64,000 nucleotides of DNA from an uncultured Prevotellaceae bacterium. Lineage in GTDB: Bacteria > Bacteroidota > Bacteroidia > Bacteroidales > Bacteroidaceae. A program made the translations under genes and the position numbers. The stretch lies in contig CAMVKN010000006.1 of assembly GCA_947168045.1 (NCBI GenBank), positions 1 through 64,000 on the forward strand, in the 5' to 3' direction. This document shows positions 1,368 through 56,017 of this stretch, one piece after another; the first letter of the stretch is position 1, and the number at the start of each line of letters is the position of its first letter. The notes under the pieces are model-generated. The model did not search any database. It had not been told where the DNA came from and saw only the letters and a list, made by a program, of their open reading frames with translations.

Positions 1368-1391
1368 CAATAACTTCAATTTTTAAAGACA

Positions 1392-2084
1392 ATGAGTAAA
1401 CTGACAAAAAATCAGAAGCTGGTAGCTGATAAGATTGAAGCAGGGAAAGCATACACCTTGAAGGAGGCCGCTGCATTGGTCAAGGAGATTACGACGACCA
1501 AGTTTGAGGCTTCTGTGGATATCGATGTGCGTCTGGGTGTTGACCCGCGTAAGGCCAACCAGATGGTGCGTGGCGTTGTGTCGCTGCCCAATGGTACTGG
1601 CAAGGTAACGCGTGTGCTCGCTCTCTGCACTCCTGATCAGGAGGCTGCCGCCAAGGAGGCCGGTGCCGACTATGTTGGTCTTGACGAGTACATCGAAAAG
1701 ATCAAGGGTGGCTGGACCGACGTGGATGTGATCATCACCATGCCCTCATGCATGGGTAAACTGGGTCCCTTGGGCCGTATCCTCGGTCCCCGTGGACTGA
1801 TGCCTAACCCCAAGAGCGGTACCGTCACTATGGACGTTGCCAAGGCTGTCAAGGAGGTGAAGCAGGGTAAGATTGACTTCAAGGTGGACAAGACGGGTAT
1901 CGTGCATACCTCTATCGGCAAGGTGTCCTTCACCGCTGATCAGATTTTCGAGAACGCCAAGGAGTTCATTGCTACCATCATCAAGCTGAAGCCCGCTGCT
2001 GCAAAGGGTACATACATGAAGAGCATCTTCCTCTCAAGTACGATGAGTATGGGTATCAAGGTAGATCCTAAATCAGTTGAATAA
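1392..2084 (+). CDS. rplA: 50S ribosomal protein L1
   Basis: [26 protein letters not shown] signature. Confidence 0.97.
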
Positions 2085-11863: not shown

Positions 11864-14806
11864 TTATTTGATTACAATTCTTTTTCCGTTGTTAATATAG
11901 ATACCCTTGGTGCTGGGCTTGCCATTCAGGCGCACACCGTCGAGCGTGTACCAGCCGTCGAACGAGAGTTCGCCCGTCTTGGTGTCAATTTCTCCGATAG
12001 CGGTCAGGTCACTATTGCGACTGACGAGGCGCACGGTGATGCTCTGGGGCAGGTCGTCGGTGGCGGCTGCGCGGGTCAAACCGCGAGCCGGGGCCGGGGC
12101 CTCCGTGCCGACATACGACAGATAACAGCGCATGGGCTTGATGAAGGCACCTGTAGTGAAGCGGACGAACTGCCCAGCCTCAACGGTTGCCGCGCCGCCA
12201 GCCTCGGTGCCACTTTGGGCTGCAAAGCCGTAGTCATTGCTTGCAACTGCCCAACTCTTCCCTTTATACGTGCCGTGGAAATTCCAGGCTACATCCGTCG
12301 TGGCGCCGCCATAGAGACCATCGTTAGCCGTCGTGGGCTGCAGCGTCACGACTCCGCCCGTCATGTTCACGATGTTCGGGAACGTCATCGTCGTCGCGTC
12401 ATCCGGCATGAACAGATACGGCGTGTTGGCCGTCAGCGTGGTCTCAGCCGTATTGCCCGGCTCCTGCATCGTGCAGACCCACTTGTGCAAGCCTTCGTCG
12501 TACACCACTTCCTTGAAGCCGTAGAACTTGCCGCCCTCGTTGTCGTTGCAGATATAGTTGAACGGCAGTATCACCGTCGCGGCCTGTGCTGTGTTGAACG
12601 GGCGGTTGTAGGTCACGCTCTTGATATTGCCTACCTCCTCCGTGATGTTCACGCCCACGACGTTGACGCCTGTTCCCTGATTGTTTGTGCCGTTGATGGT
12701 CACGTCGGCCCTCTCATTCCACTCATTGAAGCGATATTCCACCACTGCGTCGCCGTACTTCGGCGTGTAGTAGTTGCCGTCGTAGAGGAAGCCGTTCTTG
12801 TAGCCATCCACCATTCCGTGGTCGGTCATCGCATTGCCGAGGTTGGCGGGCGCGACGGTCGCCGTGGCTGCGGGGCGTCCCTGCCTGTTGCCGAGGATGC
12901 TGGTATAGTAGCAGTTTGTCATGTTGTAGGTCGGGTCACTGTTTGGATAGACGAACGTGAAGCAGTTGCCGCCCAGCGCGTATTTGCCCGTGCCGTATGC
13001 AGCGGGGGCGAAGAGGCAGTCGGTGAACGTGACGGTCAGATTACTTCCAAAGAGGTTTCCTATGAAGCCGCTGCAGTAGGTGGTCGCGTAGGCCTCGCTG
13101 GGGTTGTATATCAGTCCGTCATAGACGCAGCCCGTGACGGTGCAGGCGACGTTTGAGCCATACCAAAATGCGATGATACCGCCATGAAAGCCAACGCCGC
13201 TGACTGTGGTGCTGATTTCGGTGCTCACGCGGCAGTTATTGATGGTGATATTGCCCTCGGAATGGCCCACCAGACCGCCCAAGCGCTCATAGGTGCCGCC
13301 CGTGATGGTGCCGCCGACGTGGAGGTTGCTGATGGTGGCGCCATTGATGTAGTGGAACGGGGCGCAGAAGTCCTCGGCGGCAGTTCGGTTAAAGGTCAGC
13401 GTATTGCCCTGTCCGTCGAACGTACCCTTGAACGGGTGACCGCTCTTGCCTGCCATCTCCGATGAACTGACATTTCCAGCGAGTTTCACAACCTTGCCGC
13501 TGAAGCCGTCGGGAGCCAAGTCGTAGTTTGTGGCAAAGCAGAACCAGCCCCAGCCGTTGGCGGTCTTGATGGTGTACTCGTTTTCGCCAGTCTCTGCGAA
13601 GTCGTCCTCGCTGATAGAGAACGTTGCACCAATGTTGACTTCCTCAGCGGGCATGGTGAACGTGTATGTGTTGCTGCCGTTGTCGGTAATACCGCTGCCG
13701 ATGCTGTAGTTTGTCGTTGAGCCCGTCACGGTCAACGACTCTAACGTTTCACCGAACTTCGGCGTGAAGGTGATGGTAACCGTCTGTCCTTCGCCAGCCA
13801 TAGTTGTGCTTGCGTAATCATCGGTGCTGATATTGAACTGCGGATAGATGTTGTTAATGTCACTATAGGCCACTACGTGGAAACTCTGCGTCAGTGTGTA
13901 GTTCGTGCTGCCGATGGTGACAATGAGCCTCGCGGTGTAGTCGCCGACAGCATTTGGTGCATCTGAAGTGTAGTTGGTGCCGTCGGTCGTATAGCGGATG
14001 CCGTCGGTCGTGCCGTTGAGTCCCGTCTGCGTGTTGAATGCTGGCAGGTTGTGCGAGGCAGAGTAATACGTGCCGGGGCGATAGAAAGATTCAGTGGGCG
14101 GCGTGAGCGTCAGCGTGGCCGTATAGCCTGCATCGGCGAGCGAGCACGTTAGTCCGTCGCTGTGTCCGCAGGTGGCGGTCAGCGTGTTCCCTACGGCGTT
14201 GAATGTGAAGTCGTGCGAGTGCGTCGGCTCCACGTTGGGGATGTAGGTGATTATCATCTCGCATCCGGCGCTCTTGTCGATGAAGAATTTGGCATCGACA
14301 CCTAATCTCATGGTGAGGTTGCCGGCAATGCCTGCTGCATCTGTGCTGATAAAGGTGAAACTGGTGCTCTCGCCGCTGGCTCCAACCCCCGTCAGTGCGT
14401 CGTCGGTGCCGTTGTACTTCATGCCGTCGATTGACATGGAGAAAGTACTGCCTCCCTGCTGATTACTACGACCTGCCTTGGTGAACTCCACCTTCGTCAC
14501 CTTGCCATCGACATAGGGAGAAATGAAGAGTTGCACTTCATTCCCTTGGCCAGAAACAGCGGACGTTACGTTCTGTATCTCGAAAGCAGGATTGCTGTTA
14601 AGATAGACGTCCATCATTGTGCCGTTCACGGTTAGAATGGTCTTCTGCGTGTTGTCGTCAGGGTCGGTTGCCTTGATGCTCAAGTAGTCCGAAGTTAATG
14701 AGGCCGTGCTGAACGAGAATGTCTTCGTCAGTTCGACCGCTCCCACCGACTGCGCCGCCACGAGCCAGAAGGCGAGGGTGAGGATGAGATGGAATGATAG
14801 TTTCAT
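11864..14806 (-). CDS. Large secreted/surface protein with Gly-Tyr-Ile C-terminal tail; likely start at MKLSFHLILTLAFWLVAAQSVGA (ORF extends to 14929)
   Basis: Signal peptide after the longest-ORF start; C-terminus DGWYTLDGVRLNGKPSTKGIYINNGKRIVIK, resembling type-A C-terminal tails of T9SS cargo. Confidence 0.7.
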   Translation of the reverse strand: MKLSFHLILTLAFWLVAAQSVGAVELTKTFSFSTASLTSDYLSIKATDPDDNTQKTILTVNGTMMDVYLNSNPAFEIQNVTSAVSGQGNEVQLFISPYVDGKVTKVEFTKAGRSNQQGGSTFSMSIDGMKYNGTDDALTGVGASGESTSFTFISTDAAGIAGNLTMRLGVDAKFFIDKSAGCEMIITYIPNVEPTHSHDFTFNAVGNTLTATCGHSDGLTCSLADAGYTATLTLTPPTESFYRPGTYYSASHNLPAFNTQTGLNGTTDGIRYTTDGTNYTSDAPNAVGDYTARLIVTIGSTNYTLTQSFHVVAYSDINNIYPQFNISTDDYASTTMAGEGQTVTITFTPKFGETLESLTVTGSTTNYSIGSGITDNGSNTYTFTMPAEEVNIGATFSISEDDFAETGENEYTIKTANGWGWFCFATNYDLAPDGFSGKVVKLAGNVSSSEMAGKSGHPFKGTFDGQGNTLTFNRTAAEDFCAPFHYINGATISNLHVGGTITGGTYERLGGLVGHSEGNITINNCRVSTEISTTVSGVGFHGGIIAFWYGSNVACTVTGCVYDGLIYNPSEAYATTYCSGFIGNLFGSNLTVTFTDCLFAPAAYGTGKYALGGNCFTFVYPNSDPTYNMTNCYYTSILGNRQGRPAATATVAPANLGNAMTDHGMVDGYKNGFLYDGNYYTPKYGDAVVEYRFNEWNERADVTINGTNNQGTGVNVVGVNITEEVGNIKSVTYNRPFNTAQAATVILPFNYICNDNEGGKFYGFKEVVYDEGLHKWVCTMQEPGNTAETTLTANTPYLFMPDDATTMTFPNIVNMTGGVVTLQPTTANDGLYGGATTDVAWNFHGTYKGKSWAVASNDYGFAAQSGTEAGGAATVEAGQFVRFTTGAFIKPMRCYLSYVGTEAPAPARGLTRAAATDDLPQSITVRLVSRNSDLTAIGEIDTKTGELSFDGWYTLDGVRLNGKPSTKGIYINNGKRIVIK

Positions 14807-14860
14807 GTGTTTGAGCGTTGCCCGAACATTGCTTTCCCCTTCGGCCAGCGACCGTTGGTT

Positions 14861-14902
14861 CTCACACTCGGCAAAGCTCATGCGAGCATGGCTCTGCTCT
14901 CG
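14861..14902 (-). repeat. CGAGAGCAGAGC... leader element, copy A
   Basis: cgagagcagagccatgctcgcatgagctttgccgagtgtgag (minus) resembles plus-strand 57084-57122. Confidence 0.5.
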
Positions 14903-15019
14903 TTTAATTGAATGTTTCATACTCCTCATTTTGTTTCTTTTTAATTGTTCTTGTATTATGGCTACTTTATAATTCTCTCATCAAAGTCTGGTTGGGGGAA
15001 GCACTGTCAGTATGGGCAT

Positions 15020-15202
15020 AAAGAAAGCGCAGGCCCCGTCCATATTCTCCGACAGGCCCGCGACGGCCTCTATACATCTATGGTTGGAGACTGCGCTAAG
15101 GTGCGCAGTTCCAATGATGTATAGGTTGTGCTCGTAAAAACTCGTTAGAGGTCGCGGTTCGTCGGAGAAATTGAGCAATAAAAAGTCGTGTTCAAGAAAC
15201 AC
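15020..15202 (-). ncRNA. Structured leader RNA, copy 2, with terminator/antiterminator architecture
   Basis: P1 CTCCGAC..CGCGAC / GTCGCG..GTCGGAG, P2 TATACATC/GATGTATA, P3 CTGCGC/GCGCAG, terminator CGCGGGCC/GGCCTGCG + CTTTCTTT; promoter-like TATCTTTG upstream; same layout as 37418-37619. Confidence 0.7.
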
Positions 15203-15207
15203 TGGTG

Positions 15208-15215
15208 CAAAGATA
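15208..15215 (-). promoter_or_regulatory. Bacteroidetes -7 element TATCTTTG for the leader RNA / 11864-14806 gene
   Basis: TAnnTTTG motif on minus strand. Confidence 0.5.
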
Positions 15216-37346: not shown

Positions 37347-37414
37347 TTATTTCTGAACACTAAGAAAAAATCGGAATAGCCTTGGCGGTTCCGATTTTTG
37401 TTTGTATCTTTGCA
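37347..37414 (+). repeat. 68-bp terminator-promoter direct repeat, copy B
   Basis: Same 68 bp as 36582-36649 with tatctttg instead of tacctttg; 765 bp apart. Confidence 0.95.
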
Positions 37415-37417
37415 CCG

Positions 37418-37619
37418 TCGTTCATGTGGAGACACAAAGGACGGCAGACATCTTATTGCTCAATTCCCAACCGAAACTGCAACATCGAACAAGGAATTAG
37501 AAGAGCAAAGCTTAATCCAGTTGGAGCATGCGCCATGGTGCGCAGGCTTCGGCGTATTGGATTAAGCGGGTTGTTGCAGACCTCGGTTGGGATACGGTGA
37601 GGTCTGCGCTTTTCTTTTA
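37418..37619 (+). ncRNA. Structured leader RNA, copy 1, with terminator/antiterminator architecture
   Basis: P1 CCCAACCGA..CTGCAAC (37466-37483) / GTTGCAG..TCGGTTGGG (37573-37591), P2 GCTTAATCCA/TGGATTAAGC (37510/37558), P3 TGCGC/GCGCA, terminator GCAGACCTC/GAGGTCTGC (37576/37599) + TTTTCTTTT. Confidence 0.75.
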
Positions 37620-37714: not shown

Positions 37715-39745
37715 ATGAAAAGATCTTTACTTAAAACAATGCTCCTGCTATGCGCCCTCATAGTGGGAATGAGTAGTGCGTGGGCAGAGGAAGAAACAAT
37801 AACTTTCCCCACGTCTTCAACAAACGTGGACTGTTCTTCTTTGGGTGTTAGTGTAACAGGAACACATGTGTCTGTTACTATATCAAAGGGGACGAGTTCT
37901 TACCTTGCAACTAATACAGATGGTACACGTATCTATAATGGAAATAGTATGGTGTTTACCTCGACAGACAAAAAAATTTCTAAAATTGTTTTTGCATATA
38001 AAAGAAATAAAAAACAGACAAATGGCGTATCTGCTAATGTTGGTTCATTTACTAATAAATTTACAGTAGGAAACAGCCAAGCATCAAATCTTTCTGCAAC
38101 GTGGGAAGCAAGTGATAACGAAACGGCTAGTGTTACATTTACTGTTGGGAGTGGTTCTGGTAATTATGCCCTTGAGTCAGCTGAGGTAACATTTGTAGAG
38201 GCCGTTGCTCCTACTCACACCGTTACGTTTAGTGTGAACGGTACCACAACGACAGCCACCGTTGCTGAGGGTGCAGCCATTGAATTCCCCAATAATCCTG
38301 CTGATATTAACGGCATGAAGTTCGTGGGCTGGTACACCGATGAATATACTCATGCAACAGATGCTCCATCTTTTGTTACGTCTGCCACGATGGGGGACAG
38401 CGACGTGACTTATTATGCTGTATTTGCTGAGGCAGAAGCAACAGGACAAACAGTTGAAACAAAAACGCAGACGTTACAGTATGACACTTGGACGTATAGT
38501 GGGACTACAACTAACATGACATCTTATCGTTTATTTGCTGAAAACAGCTATATCGAGTCTGCCTCTTTCGACTTGAGCAAACTTTCGAAAGTCATAGTTT
38601 ATGCAGGTACTTATGGCACTTTATCATCTGCAAATAAGAAAGTAACCGTTACTGCTGGTGAGACTACCTGGGGCAGTGCTACTTTGACAACTAATAGCGC
38701 AACAACACAAAATACTATAACCAGTAACACATCACTTTCAGAAAGTGGCAACTTACATATTGTTGCAGGTGGGGGCGATGGTGATAATAATGGTATTCGT
38801 ATCTCTAAGGTAGAGATCTTTACGAATGAACCGGTTTTTGATTATAGCAACTATTGCACAACAGTACCATCACCTGCGATTACCCTCAGCACTAATTTGG
38901 TTGAGGCTACAGCTGACGGGACAGAAAGTACCACCATCAACGTGACCTACACAGCTATTGAAACCAGCGTTGGAGTCGACTTTGTTTGGTACACAGATGA
39001 AACAGCTAATACAGCTATTACAGATGATGATGAACCCGACTGGCTTATACCTGAAATCAATTCAAGCAATAACTTGGCATTTCTTTTTGAAGAAAACACA
39101 GGTGCAGCACGCACGGCCTATATGAAGGTCTATGCCCTCGACGTCAATGGTGAAGATGTTTATTCAGAGCTGATTACCATCACCCAGGCAGCTGCCACTC
39201 TGCCTATTACCGTTTCCGAAGCTGGCTGGGCAACCTTCGCCCCCACGCAGAACGTGTCGTTCGACCCTGAGGTGATGTCTGTTTACGTGGTGACAAATGC
39301 TACGACGACGAGTGCTACGCTGCAGTCGGTGTCTTCAGTGCCTGCTAACACGCCCGTACTGATTTGCGCCGAGGCTGGAACCTATGGTCTCCCAGTGGTT
39401 GATGCTGCTACAGCTCCTACTACCAACCTTCTCCAAGTCAGCAACGGCTCAATCGTTGGCAATGGCTCCACCATCTACAGTTTGGCTAAGATTGATGATG
39501 TAGGCTTCTACCTCGTAGGCAATGGCGTGACCATTCCCGCAGGCAAGTGCTATCTGGACATAGGCACGCAGGGGCAAGGCAATGCCCGTGCATTCCTGAC
39601 CCTTGGTGGCAACACCGAGACTGGCATCACCACGGTGGCTGCTGACGCTGCCGATGGCAACATCTATGACCTAACGGGTCGCCGCGTCTCTGGTGTGGCT
39701 CGTGGCCTGTACATCGTCAACGGCAAGAAGGTCGTGCTGAAATAA
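37715..39745 (+). CDS. Secreted surface protein with InlB-like repeat and GLYIVNGKKVVLK tail
   Basis: Signal peptide MKRSLLKTMLLLCALIVGMSSAWA; GMKFVGWYTDEYTHA; C-terminal YDLTGRRVSGVARGLYIVNGKKVVLK. Confidence 0.75.
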   Translation: MKRSLLKTMLLLCALIVGMSSAWAEEETITFPTSSTNVDCSSLGVSVTGTHVSVTISKGTSSYLATNTDGTRIYNGNSMVFTSTDKKISKIVFAYKRNKKQTNGVSANVGSFTNKFTVGNSQASNLSATWEASDNETASVTFTVGSGSGNYALESAEVTFVEAVAPTHTVTFSVNGTTTTATVAEGAAIEFPNNPADINGMKFVGWYTDEYTHATDAPSFVTSATMGDSDVTYYAVFAEAEATGQTVETKTQTLQYDTWTYSGTTTNMTSYRLFAENSYIESASFDLSKLSKVIVYAGTYGTLSSANKKVTVTAGETTWGSATLTTNSATTQNTITSNTSLSESGNLHIVAGGGDGDNNGIRISKVEIFTNEPVFDYSNYCTTVPSPAITLSTNLVEATADGTESTTINVTYTAIETSVGVDFVWYTDETANTAITDDDEPDWLIPEINSSNNLAFLFEENTGAARTAYMKVYALDVNGEDVYSELITITQAAATLPITVSEAGWATFAPTQNVSFDPEVMSVYVVTNATTTSATLQSVSSVPANTPVLICAEAGTYGLPVVDAATAPTTNLLQVSNGSIVGNGSTIYSLAKIDDVGFYLVGNGVTIPAGKCYLDIGTQGQGNARAFLTLGGNTETGITTVAADAADGNIYDLTGRRVSGVARGLYIVNGKKVVLK

Positions 39746-50085: not shown

Positions 50086-53000
50086 TCACGAGTTGGCCAG
50101 CGTGACGTTCTGGTTGTTCCTTGTCACCGTGCCGTTTTGCTCCATGACAGTCAACACCTCCTTGATGGTCTCGCTAATCTTGGCCCCGGCACCTGCGAAG
50201 CCCAGCTTCTTGGCTGCCAGTGTGGGAATCTTGTCGGGCGGCAGCGAGAACTCCTCCTCAATCACCTCCCTGATGGCATTGGCTATCTCCACGGCAGGAA
50301 TCTCGGTGATGGTGCGTGCTGAGGGAGCCCTGTAGCCTTCGAAGCGGTCAGCGCTTGCCTTGTCAGTCCAATAGCTGCTGATGCCGCCGATGGTCATCGG
50401 GTCGCGGTAGAGCTGCGTCGCAGCATGTGCCACGGCCCGCTGTATGTTAGCCCCGGCATGGCCGAAGCCCAGCGCCTTGGCCAGCCGCTTGCACAGGTAG
50501 CCCTCGGTGGCAGGCTGCTCAACCTTCAGGATGTTCTTGATGATGCGTAGGTTGGCAGCGTCAAGAGGGTTGAAGGCATCCTTGCCAATGGGCACGGCAT
50601 CCATGGCACACTCGTGGTAAGGCTGCTGTCCCTTGTTGCGCATGGTGTCCACGGCGATGCCTGCAGCCTTAATCTTCTCAGCGTCGAAGAGCGGGGTGGG
50701 CTCCGTCACGACAGTCTCCTCCTGCGCCTTTCCAGCTTCGGCATCCTTCAGCTCGTCAATGATTTGCTTCAGTGCTCGCTCGCGGTTCTCATACCAGTCG
50801 ATGGAGTAAACCCGCATCACCCTCCAGGCGAGCATGCGCAGCACGCCGGGCTGCACAATCTCACGGTCGCGTGTGGTCTTCGTCTCGTAGTAGGTCTTGC
50901 CGTCGCACAGTATTCCCAGGATGTACTTCTCTGGCTGCTCGCGTGTGGCCACGGCAATGTCAACCTTGAAGTTCGACCTGCCCACAAAGGCCTCGGTGAC
51001 ATAGCCCTGCTGTTCCAGCGCGCTGCATATCTGGCTCACCATCACATTCTTACTGCCCTCGTCGGTGGGGGGGGCGGTCAGCGGCAGCCGTCCCGTCTCG
51101 GCAAACTCCAGGAAGCCCTTCAGTCCCTCCACGCCCTTGGCCTGCGAGCGACGCAGGTCAATCTGGCTGGCCTTCAGTGTGGAGTAGACAATCATCTCAT
51201 AGCGTGCGCGCGACACGGCCACGTTCAGTCGTCGCTCGCCGCCGGCGTTGTTCAGCGGGCCGAAGTTCATCGACACCCTTCCATACTTGTCGGCACCGTA
51301 GCCGATGGAGAAGAGAATGACATCGCGCTCGTCGCCCTGTACGTTCTCCAGGTTCTTCACGAAGATGGGCTCATGGCTGCCCATGGCCACCTCCTTCAGG
51401 TCTGGCCGACGGTCGAGGGCCTCGGTCAGGTCATCCTCAATGCGGTCGCCCTGCACCTTGCTGAACGACACGATGCCCATGCTGTAGCGGCTCAGCTCAG
51501 GGTCATTCAGACGGCGCAGCACCTCGTCGACGATGGCCTTCGACTCCTCGGGGTTGCTTCTGGTGTGTCCCTTGTCGTACACACCGTTGACGGGTACGAG
51601 CCTGACCTTCGCCACATGGTCGTCGGTCGAGGGGAAGGTCAGCAGCTGGTTGTCGTAGTACTGCGAGTTGCTGAAGGCGATGAGGCTCTCGTGCTTGCTG
51701 CGGTAGTGCCAGTTCAGCTGGTGCTCGCAGAGCGAGAGGGTGATGCAGTCGTCGAGGATGCTCTCCATGTCGTCGATGTCCGACTCCTCCTCGTCCACCT
51801 GCGTGGTGGTGAAGAAGCTGGTCGGCGGCATCTGCTTGCTGTCGCCCACGACGATGAGCGCCTTTCCGCGGGCGATGGCGCCCACGGCCTCGCTCGTCGG
51901 CATCTGCGAAGCCTCGTCGAAGATGACCAGGTCGAACTTCTCGTTGTTCAGGTCAATGTATTGCGCCACTGAGATGGGACTCATCAGCATGCAGGGGCAC
52001 AGTCGTGGCAGCAGCGTCGGAATGTTGTCAATGATGGCGCGTATGGAGTTGCCCCGTCCGCCGTTGGCAATGTTCCGCTTCAGGATGCTCATCTCCGACC
52101 CTTCGGCGCTGGCGGCCGACGACGATGGCACCCTTGAGGCCAGCTTGCTGTACAGCTCCTGCTTGCTCAGCTCCTGGAAGTGCGCCGTGTCGCGCTTGTA
52201 TTTCTCTATCTGCTGGCGGAACTTCAGTCCGTTGAACATCCTCAGGCTTTCGTTGTCGTCGATGGCCGTGCTGATGAGCTGGTGGAAGATGGCCTTCAGG
52301 AAGGTGTTCATGGCCTGTGCCGGCCGCACGCCCTGTTCGGTCATCGTCACCACGGGCAGGGCCTCCATCTGGCACAGCTCCCGTTTCTTGTCCGTCCAGT
52401 GGTACCAGTCCTTAATCAGTGCATAGCAGTCGAGCCACTGCGCCACATGCCTGCCAATGTCACCCTTGCTGTTGGCCCGTGCCGTCAGTCCCTGTAACCG
52501 TGCCGTCAGCTCTGTCAGCTGCTTGTCTTGGCTGATGACGGTCCCGGCATCCAGCAGGAACTCGGAAGCTTTGCTCCTTAGTCCGTTCTGGAAACGGCTG
52601 TAGGCATCGTGGCGCTCCTGGTGGCTGAAGCCGTTGGCGTGGGCAAATGCCACCATCTCCTCCGTCTGCTGCTTCAGGCTCTTGTTCGTCTGCTGGTATG
52701 CGTCAACCATGTTGAGCATGCTGTCAATGCCCGACTCAAACACCGGACCGTAGACCTGCAGTGTCTTCAGGTAGCGTTTCTTGGCGAAGAATCTTGGCAG
52801 GAACCACTTTGACTTCACCTCTTCCCACTCCCTGCGGTAGGCCCCCACGTCCATGCGCAGGATGCCCTCTTGGTACGATGCCAGCAGCTGCTCGCGTTGT
52901 TCCCCGGCTTTCTGCTCGGTTGTCAGATAGTCAGTAAACAGTGCCAGCCACTTCAAATCGGCTTCGCTCTGCAACCCGAAGCCCGTGGCCGTGTTCAGTG

Positions 53001-55680
53001 CACTCAGGCTGGCCTCATGTTTCTGACTGATGTCGTGGAAAGACTGCAGCACTGTGTGGATGGTGTCCAAGGTGTCCTGGCGGTTGTCCTTCGGCTCCAG
53101 TCCGAAGAGGGCGTGTTGGCTGGGCTGCCCCACGATGTCGAGGATGGCGTCCATCTGCTCCACCTGCTCACGACACTGGCTGATATACTCAGCCGTCATC
53201 TTCTCCTTTGACGGCAGCACTGTCTTCTCTGCCTCCTCCTCGCTCAGCGCCAGGTATTCAGAGATGCACTCATAGAGGCTCAGGCCGCTCGGCCCCTTCT
53301 GGTGCAGCGCCTCCATGTAGGCTATCAGCTTCTTTCGCTCGCCATACAGCTCTTCCGATTTCTTGGCATACTCCTCGGGCGCCTTGATTTTCGTCACCTT
53401 CAGCACCTGGTCCATCTGTTCCAGGAAGTGCTTCTTCGTGGCCTTGTTCGAGTGTAGCTCTAAGCAGAACGGTGCCAGGTTGATTTTCTCCAATCGTGAC
53501 TGCACCACTGACAGGGCCGCCATCTTCTCAGCCACGAACAGCACCCGCTTGCCTTGGTACAGGGCGTTGGCTATCATGTTTGTGATGGTCTGCGACTTGC
53601 CCGTTCCGGGAGGGCCGTGCAGGATGAAGCTGCGGCCGCGGCCCGACTCCACGATGGCCTCCATCTGTGACGAGTCGACGTCCAAGGGTATGGCAAAGTC
53701 CATGGGGGCCGTGGCCTTGTCGATGTCGCGTGCGTCCACACCGTCGGTAGCGGCCTCCTGCTTGTCGTGCTTCTCTATCAGCGAGGCCACCACCACATTC
53801 TCTTTCAGCTTGTCGGCATTGCTGTGGATGTCGTTCCACATCACGAACTTGTTGAATGAGAACAGTCCGAGCATCGACTCCTCCACGACGTTCCATTTCT
53901 TCTGCTCAATGATGGCCCGTCGGAAGTAGGTGAAGATGAGTTTCACATCGACGCCGCTGTCGTCCTTGGGCAGCTCCTTCAGTACTTCGAGGTTGATGCC
54001 GAAGCTCTGCTTCAGCAGCTCCACCAGGGTGATGTTCAGGATGATGTCCTCGTCGCGCTTCCTTATAATATAGTTGTTGCCGCTTTTGCGTATCATGTCC
54101 ACCGGCAGCAGCAGGATGGGTGCGTAGCGGGGCTGTTCGCTCTTGGCTGTCTCATACCATTTCAGCATGCCCAGCGCCAGGAACAGGCTGTTGGCACCGT
54201 TCTCTTCCAACGATGTGCGTGCCGTTCTGTACACATATTTCAAGGCGTTCTGCAGCTCGGTCTCAGACAGGTAGGAGGCAATCTTGTGTTCGTTGATGAG
54301 CTCAGATACATACTGCTGGTGCTCGGTGGCCTGCTGGGCTGAGTCGTACATGCCATCGGCGTTGGGTTCCACCTTCTTCCCCGGTGTTGGCGTGATGTAG
54401 TAGTCTTCGCCGTTCTGCAGATGGTCTTCCAGGTGCTCAATGCCAAATGAGATGAATGGCACCACCTTGCGTCCCAGGCGTGTGTTCAGCAGGTTGTTGC
54501 GCAGCGAGAAGTCCAGCAGCTTGCGCTCCCAAATCATCTGCTTGGTCACGGGCTTCCCCGTGTCCTCCAGTCGTAGGTCGTAGTGGCTGAGGCTGTTCAC
54601 CACCTCTGTCGCCTTCTGGTGTTCAATGCCTTCGCTTGAAAACGTCCACTGCCCGTCTTGCATGATGCGCTGGGGTAGGGGGCGGATGTTGCCCAAGCGG
54701 CAACGGTGTATGTCGATGAAATACAGGAACTGGCTCTCATCGCTCAGCTTCTTCATGGCGCTCTTGACGGCGTCCTCAAAGCTGACCGCCTCAGATGCGG
54801 TGATGGCCGTCGACTCTATCAACACGATGTTGTGGTTGCCGTCGGCCGTCTCCTTCAGCAGGAAGCTGGCGTCGTCGCACACCATCTGCGGGAACATGCT
54901 CTGTGTCAGCCAGGCCCCCACCATGGCATGCCCCTTCAGCATCAGTACGATGGGGTGTATGCCTACGGACTCTAAGCACGATGCCATCAGCAGACTGGTG
55001 TCTAAGCAGGTGCCCAGCTTCTCCGTCAGCACCTTGTCGGCCAGGCGTATGCGCTGACCGGTGGATTCGAAGCTGGCGGGCGGTGCCGAATAGACGATTC
55101 CCTCGGTGCGTAACGCCTCATAGAAGGCAGCCACCTGGGCCCGCACGCGGTTGCGGTCTTGCGTCTGATACTCGTCGAAGGCAGCTGACCCCGTCCATTT
55201 CTCCATGAACCTGGCAGCCTTCAGCTTCACCTGTGCCAGCAGCGGGTTGTTGGGCACCACGAAAGCGGCCAGCTGCTCGGGCATGATGCTGGAGCCGGCC
55301 CACTCGTCAAACGGCAGAAGGGTGATGGGGTAGTCGTGGCTGAACACCCTGTCGGGGCCCACCGTGACGGTCACCGTGAACGCCGTCAGCACGGCTTCGG
55401 TGGTGTCGGTCAGCAGCTTCAGCTCTGGCTCAATCTTGATGCTCTTCAGCTGAATGACTTGCGCCTGGCGCAGTGTGTCTAACAGGCAGCGGCAGTCTTT
55501 GATATATTCGCCACCGACCTCGATGCTCACCTGGTTCCAGTCGCTGTCGTCGTGGTTCTCCAAGACAAGGGCGTCACATACCTCTATTCCATTGTTCAGC
55601 ATGGAGTAGTTCACCTTTGGCAGATACTCAATCTTCAGTCTTGCCCGCTCTTTTCCTTCGTCTCTTGTCGTGTTGTCCAT
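50086..55680 (-). CDS. Very large DUF4011/DUF3320-type superfamily 1 helicase with Vsr/DUF559-like nuclease domain (likely start MDNTTRDEG)
   Basis: Walker A [96 protein letters not shown]. Confidence 0.85.
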   Translation of the reverse strand: [1864 protein letters not shown]

Positions 55681-56017
55681 AAGTCTTGTCTGTTGAGAGT
55701 GTAAAGTTAGTGCTTTTGTTTCACTTACCACTCCATCCAGCCGTTTTTTTAGGGATTATTAAGAGAACGGGCTACTAATAACGAAGAACTGCGACCCTCA
55801 CGAGCCGCAGCACTTACAAGCCTATGTTTAACTAAAAATCCTTTTCTCTTAAAGAAATTTTAGCCCACGTAGGACTAAAAATTCGAAAGTTTAAATGGGA
55901 GCTTCACAGCGACCACCTGTTATCCGCAGTTGAAAACTTTCTTTTACCAATAACTAAAAACCTAAAACTATAAATATTACTACTAACCTAAAACAATCTA
56001 TTAACCTTTTGATGGTG

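Follow-up and report, generated by a model that had tools for sequence, protein, structure and literature searches.

The window, i.e. the whole stretch of 64,000 nucleotides analysed here, carries two similar elements on opposite strands, each upstream of an open reading frame (ORF) for a secreted protein, and the question raised by this locus is whether they represent a conserved structured RNA and how such an RNA would act on the gene behind it. Our results point to a transcription attenuator acting in cis, which forms the 5' leader of single genes for secreted proteins, as the probable answer: a long hairpin (fold A) would correspond to the ON state, and a pair of hairpins termed H1 and H2 (fold B) to the OFF state.

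An earlier note on this DNA had claimed a cis-acting RNA structure conserved between the two copies. In agreement with this notion, both copies fold more stably than shuffled sequence (minimum free energy z -5.0 and -6.1). The words quoted there, the arms of P1, P2, P3 and P4 and the T-run were all found on the minus strand at 15020-15215, the words CGCGGGCC and GGCCTGCG being present in copy 2 on that strand together with the T-run. The 13-mer said to be shared by the copies has exactly two occurrences in the window, and none of 100 shuffles contained two matches with at most one mismatch (mean 0.04). Regarding the extent of the element, the core indeed reaches 15020, whereas its other limit had been drawn too narrowly, as the promoter box begins at 15215 and a further hairpin, P0, occupies 15202-15188 (Table 1).

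Table 1. Features of the two RNA copies in the window and of the ORFs behind them; E-values are rough.
Copy	Feature	Position	Strand	Remark
1	Promoter box TATCTTTG	37405..37412	+	
1	P0 hairpin	37415..37444	+	
1	RNA core	37453..37618	+	R1 135.6 bits, E 3.6e-26
1	H1, TTGCTCAATTCC..GGAATT..GAGCAA	37456..37508	+	
1	H2, predicted terminator hairpin	37540..37609	+	followed by U-run to 37618
1	Presumed regulated ORF, secreted protein	37715..39745	+	Listeria-Bacteroides repeat (PF09479)
2	Promoter box TATCTTTG, TAnnTTTG type	15208..15215	-	read in sequence
2	P0 hairpin, GTGTT..GAACAC	15188..15202	-	presumed transcript 5' end
2	RNA core	15020..15181	-	fold A, P1-P4 long hairpin; fold B, H1 + H2
2	13-mer TTATTGCTCAATT	15181-15169	-	
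2	P1 5' arm TCTCCGAC	15161..15168	-	partner 15046-15053; within H1 in fold B
2	P1 3' arm GTCGGAGA	15046..15053	-	
2	P2 5' strand CCGCGAC	15151..15157	-	apical loop of H1 in fold B
2	P2 3' strand GTCGCGG	15058..15064	-	apical loop of H2 in fold B
2	P3 5' strand CTATACATC	15116..15124	-	partner 15070-15078
2	P3 3' strand GATGTATAG	15070..15078	-	
2	P4 5' strand GGAACTGCGC	15103..15112	-	proposed antiterminator strand
2	P4' GCGCAGTCTCC	15086..15096	-	pairs with P4 5' strand (fold A) or 3' end (fold B)
2	H1, fold-B 5' hairpin	15129..15177	-	outer helix Pa, TGCTC..GAGCA
2	H2, fold-B predicted terminator hairpin	15026..15097	-	P5 + CCATA/TATGG + GGC/GCC
2	U-run 3' of H2	15020..15026	-	
2	Presumed regulated ORF, secreted protein	11864..14929	-	InlB-type B-repeat (PF18998); start 14929 or 14806

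A first homologue search, performed with a sequence pattern on 100 genomes of the genus, returned seven further members, which were aligned with the two window copies, and this alignment supports P1-P4. Two covariance models were used, R1 and R2, the latter built from 100 members. The core of copy 2 scores 173.8 bits with R1 (E 1.4e-34, the E-values of both models being rough). The compensatory changes reported between the two copies extend to nine homologues, in which 94.7% of the cells pair and each of the eight P1 pairs is altered on both sides in some member. Among 100 members, 96.2% of the P1-P4 cells pair, and compensatory cells amount to 910 vs 246 in shuffles.

The earlier note had named a lack of significant covariation among added homologues as the result that would speak against the structure. 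With homologues added, and with our own approximation of R-scape as a tree-aware null, in which substitutions were distributed anew over a FastTree tree and column pairs were scored by a G-test with APC, covariation is decisively present. In alignment A5, significant pairs at E<=0.05 comprise eight of nine in P1, five of seven in P2 and nine of ten in P3, and in alignment A7 the P1-P3 helices reach z 65-68, A7 partly overlapping A5 and the two having species in common, which limits their independence. Pairing is best preserved in P2, with zero unpaired cells in either alignment. P1, P2 and P3 covary far beyond the tree-aware null.

When covarying columns were sought by an unbiased scan, pairs that do not belong to fold A emerged as well, namely GGY/RCC around P2', CCAUA/UAUGG, and P4' with the 3' end (P5, GYGCAGAC/GUCUGCRC), and these three helices nest into a single hairpin, H2, with the U-run at its end. 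For the terminator originally named, P2' with the 3' end, a permutation test gave no support, its complementarity not being cis-specific (z -1.3; 213 of 2000 permutations equally good). The complementarity of P5 is cis-specific (z -4.0; 0 of 2000 permutations as good), and P5 forms in the minimum free energy structure of the 3' half in 94% of members; in the 5' half, the outer helix of H1, Pa (UUGCUC/GAGCAA), does so in about 95%. When scored by helix against the tree-aware null, P5 (z 4.4), CCAUA/UAUGG (z 7.9), GGY/RCC (z 13.0) and Pa (z 5.1) lie above all 100 simulations, the inner helices of H1 being weaker (Pb, z 3.0, 1/100; Pc, z 2.5, 4/100). These values are helix sums: in P5, CCAUA/UAUGG and H1, whose sequences show little variation, individual pairs do not reach significance for that reason, and the GGY/RCC signal is carried essentially by one pair. 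Distant members from other families keep both H1 and H2, and in several of them both arms of Pa differ, as in TAGCTC/GAGCTA and TGGCTC/GAGCCG.

Within the window, the 5' half of copy 1, which forms H1, has a folding energy of -11.3 kcal/mol (z -3.4), and that of copy 2 folds weakly on its own (H1 z -0.7). H2 of copy 1 reaches -38.6 kcal/mol (z -5.7) and the 3' half of copy 2 -35.3 kcal/mol (z -3.4). The interior of H2, of about 44 nt, is long for a terminator.

The conserved words flanking the fold-A helices had been taken for single-stranded. Among 52 highly conserved columns, however, 33 pair only in fold B, nine only in fold A, four in both and six in neither, three of these six being the U-run; the 'single-stranded' words are therefore largely arms of fold B. 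Mean column identity is 0.88 in the fold-B helices vs 0.65 in pairs exclusive to fold A.

The proposed promoter finds ample backing in the family, since 89 of the 100 members have a TAnnTTTG box about 27 nt upstream of the core, whereas shuffles would yield 5.5; the distance is usually 25-29 nt, and the box ends most often at 26-29 nt. The presumed transcript opens with P0, and the leaders of 88 members have a mean folding energy of -8.3 kcal/mol vs -3.0 kcal/mol in shuffles; across the 100 members, the P0 stems, which lie within ~30 nt upstream of the core, vary in sequence but have mostly kept their pairing. The 3' U-run, likewise claimed before, holds for the family with a mean of 5.8 T in seven positions. 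A same-strand ORF follows 91 of 100 copies at a median distance of 72 nt, the remaining nine copies having no qualifying downstream ORF. According to a simple hydropathy heuristic for signal-peptide-like starts, 75 of these 91 ORFs look exported vs 41 of 115 in the background (Fisher p 1e-11). Proteins of the BspA-type leucine-rich repeat (LRR) are the commonest (15/93), followed by Ig-like proteins, beta-barrels and lipoproteins; a single downstream protein family was considered and rejected, as the 93 proteins have no common alignment. A conserved upstream ORF encoding a leader peptide was not found (61 of 99 leaders vs 71 expected in shuffles), and TAnnTTTG boxes on the opposite strand show a weak excess (15/100 vs 8 expected).

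As for copy 2, the announced secreted-protein ORF is present downstream, its start at 14806 not being the sole option: an in-frame ATG at 14929 lies 91 nt from the RNA, the usual spacing in the family. Between MRSMK and the signal peptide, the stretch 14807-14929 (-) encodes ~40 residues that are absent from the related proteins of L010 and L023. Elsewhere in the window, at 50086-55731 (-), a 1881-aa ORF matches the anti-phage ProA model NF058533 with 1874 bits (cut-off 1500).

R1 detected five copies in the genome to which the window belongs, and of 400 genomes of the family it found 128 to carry members. R2 detected members, some of them weak, in 14 genomes of other families within a sample of the order, and in a phylum-level sample of 299 genomes it detected none besides the window's own genome. 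A fuller search of eleven other genomes gave between 2 and 11 copies in each. Many of the searched genomes are metagenome assemblies; the named carrier records are mostly Prevotella and Bacteroidaceae assemblies from the rumen or other ruminant guts, and the carriers include two isolates, Prevotella communis E15-14, which has two copies, and Prevotella sp. ne3005. Two weaker copies of the own genome deserve mention: one (L055, contig C2:59062-59219) has no close same-strand ORF downstream, and the other (L056, C3:129425-129532) runs off the contig end. A partial, weak copy of 21 bits (L020, ~1382-1513, minus strand) diverges after the P2 5' arm, and the ORF that follows it downstream looks, on visual inspection, like an IS110-type transposase; an insertion sequence may have landed in this RNA. 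Two members on short contigs (L120 and L121) stand in records titled Methanobrevibacter and Lachnospiraceae, and their presence under archaeal and Firmicutes assemblies is probably due to binning contamination.

Phage and plasmid records gave no match to the RNA family, and four pattern hits on viral contigs were rejected as members for want of a model match. At Rfam 15 gathering scores there were no matches in the window; at E<=5 only mir-878 appeared, an animal microRNA matched by chance with 16 bits vs the 80 needed, and the T-box model gave no match in the Rfam scans. A literature search, covering work other than subscription papers and preprints, found no description of the family. It is thus absent from Rfam 15 and from the searched literature, and an earlier description may exist elsewhere.

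Since both folds covary and share strands, a terminator/antiterminator attenuator is the most likely reading. The strand P4' contributes to P4 in fold A but to P5 in fold B; therefore, P4 and P5 exclude each other, in accordance with the mutually exclusive stems that the earlier note had envisaged. The members combine a terminator-like hairpin, H2, and its U-run with a competing conserved pairing on P4' and, in most copies, a 5' leader position relative to an ORF. On the basis of these features, i.e. helices, covariation, strand sharing, promoter box, U-run, and gene position and type, all of them evident from sequence, we propose the following cycle. In fold A, the 5' half would pair with the 3' half through P1-P4, leaving the terminator strand occupied and allowing read-through (ON). 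In fold B, the 5' half would close on itself as H1, through UUGCUC/GAGCAA plus the inner helices, and the 3' half as H2, through P5, CCAUA/UAUGG and GGY/RCC, directly before the U-run, where transcription would stop (OFF). The two strands of P2 occupy the apical loops, the 5' strand that of H1, 9 nt long, and the 3' strand that of H2; in this regard, the simplest route from fold B to fold A might be a kissing contact between the two P2 loops followed by strand exchange and zipping. A signal, which may be a small molecule, a protein or another RNA, would act by stabilizing or opening H1. Mean constrained energies calculated without ligand are -55.5 kcal/mol for fold A vs -44.5 kcal/mol when P5 is enforced, the median of the differences being ~10 kcal/mol, and, consequently, fold B would need help or kinetics in its favor.

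Several agents could choose the fold within such an attenuator. If H1 or the P1-P3 junction were a small-molecule aptamer, the family would be a true riboswitch, an option that we hold tentatively: the layout is typical, with a leader, alternative folds, a terminator and dispersed exported genes, and up to 11 copies occur per genome, but the downstream genes suggest no metabolite, and outside the U-run just three of the highly conserved columns lack a partner in either fold, so that there is no obvious binding pocket, which speaks somewhat against a classical aptamer. To the same tentative degree, an RNA-binding or antitermination protein may hold H1 or H2. The fold-B helices are conserved in sequence as well as in pairing, as expected for a protein site, and this conservation in the arms of H1 and H2 speaks somewhat for a bound factor, although having to form pairs in two alternative folds could also account for it. 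Rather unlikely, in our opinion, is a ligand-free logic element made of RNA, in which a cis 'antisense' hairpin, loop contact and zipping would decide and the terminated leaders of ~190 nt would act in trans on paralogous leaders; were this the case, many surface proteins would be co-regulated without a protein regulator. Diversity of the P2 loops within genomes is not clearly above that between genomes, and no selection for paralogue-specific loops was detected.

Other explanations dispense with attenuation. The promoter-to-terminator unit of ~190 nt is what one would expect of a stand-alone small RNA lying upstream of genes by chance, but most copies have a tightly spaced same-strand exported ORF without conserved gene identity, and a plain small RNA needs no strand exchange between terminator and antiterminator; we consider this unlikely. 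Little credence is given to a leader that governs RNA stability or translation instead of termination, for instance by RNase III cutting of the long duplex: it would account for fold A as a long stable hairpin, while leaving the U-run right after H2 and the strand shared by P4 and P5 without a role. Finally, inverted repeats preceding surface-protein genes could mimic an RNA if they were a DNA element such as a recombination or inversion site. This appears highly improbable given that orientation to promoter and ORF is fixed in the great majority of copies, the U-run is one-sided, G-U pairs are tolerated, phage and plasmid records give no match, and the pattern hits on viral contigs lack one to the model.

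Taken together, our findings describe a strongly supported, uncatalogued RNA family that apparently controls exported and surface proteins, among them BspA-type LRR proteins, Ig-like proteins and lipoproteins. Its hosts are Bacteroidales of the rumen and gut, for which few RNA regulators are known. If a ligand exists, the attenuator would represent a class of orphan riboswitch, and an isolate with a complete genome would be accessible as a carrier.

Among known systems, transcriptional and orphan riboswitches resemble this family in their 5' leader position, exclusive folds, terminator with U-run and occurrence in several copies before a gene set; in contrast to them, the family has no obvious conserved unpaired pocket, and its folds are built from two complementary hairpins with matching loops. 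In trp-type leader-peptide attenuators, segments pair 1:2 and 3:4 or cross-pair, a logic that is also found here, without the conserved upstream ORF (61/99 vs 71 expected). In antisense-RNA attenuators of the pT181/pIP501 type, base pairing that possibly starts between complementary loops decides termination. The family is alike in that its terminator decision could be made by pairing initiated between complementary hairpin loops, and differs in having both hairpins in one RNA and no clear antisense promoter (15/100 vs 8). Engineered pT181 attenuators have been described (PMC3753616). Structured RNAs confined to Bacteroidetes are also familiar, such as the motifs Bacteroidales-1, Bacteroides-1, Bacteroid-trp and 6S-Flavo (PMC2864571). 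The present family shares that confinement, whereas neither window copy matches an Rfam 15 model at E up to 5, the chance microRNA aside. To our knowledge, a complementary pair of conserved hairpins within one leader is an unusual variant of an attenuator, and the mutually complementary loops and stems of H1 and H2 provide both a testable prediction and a handle on the signal.
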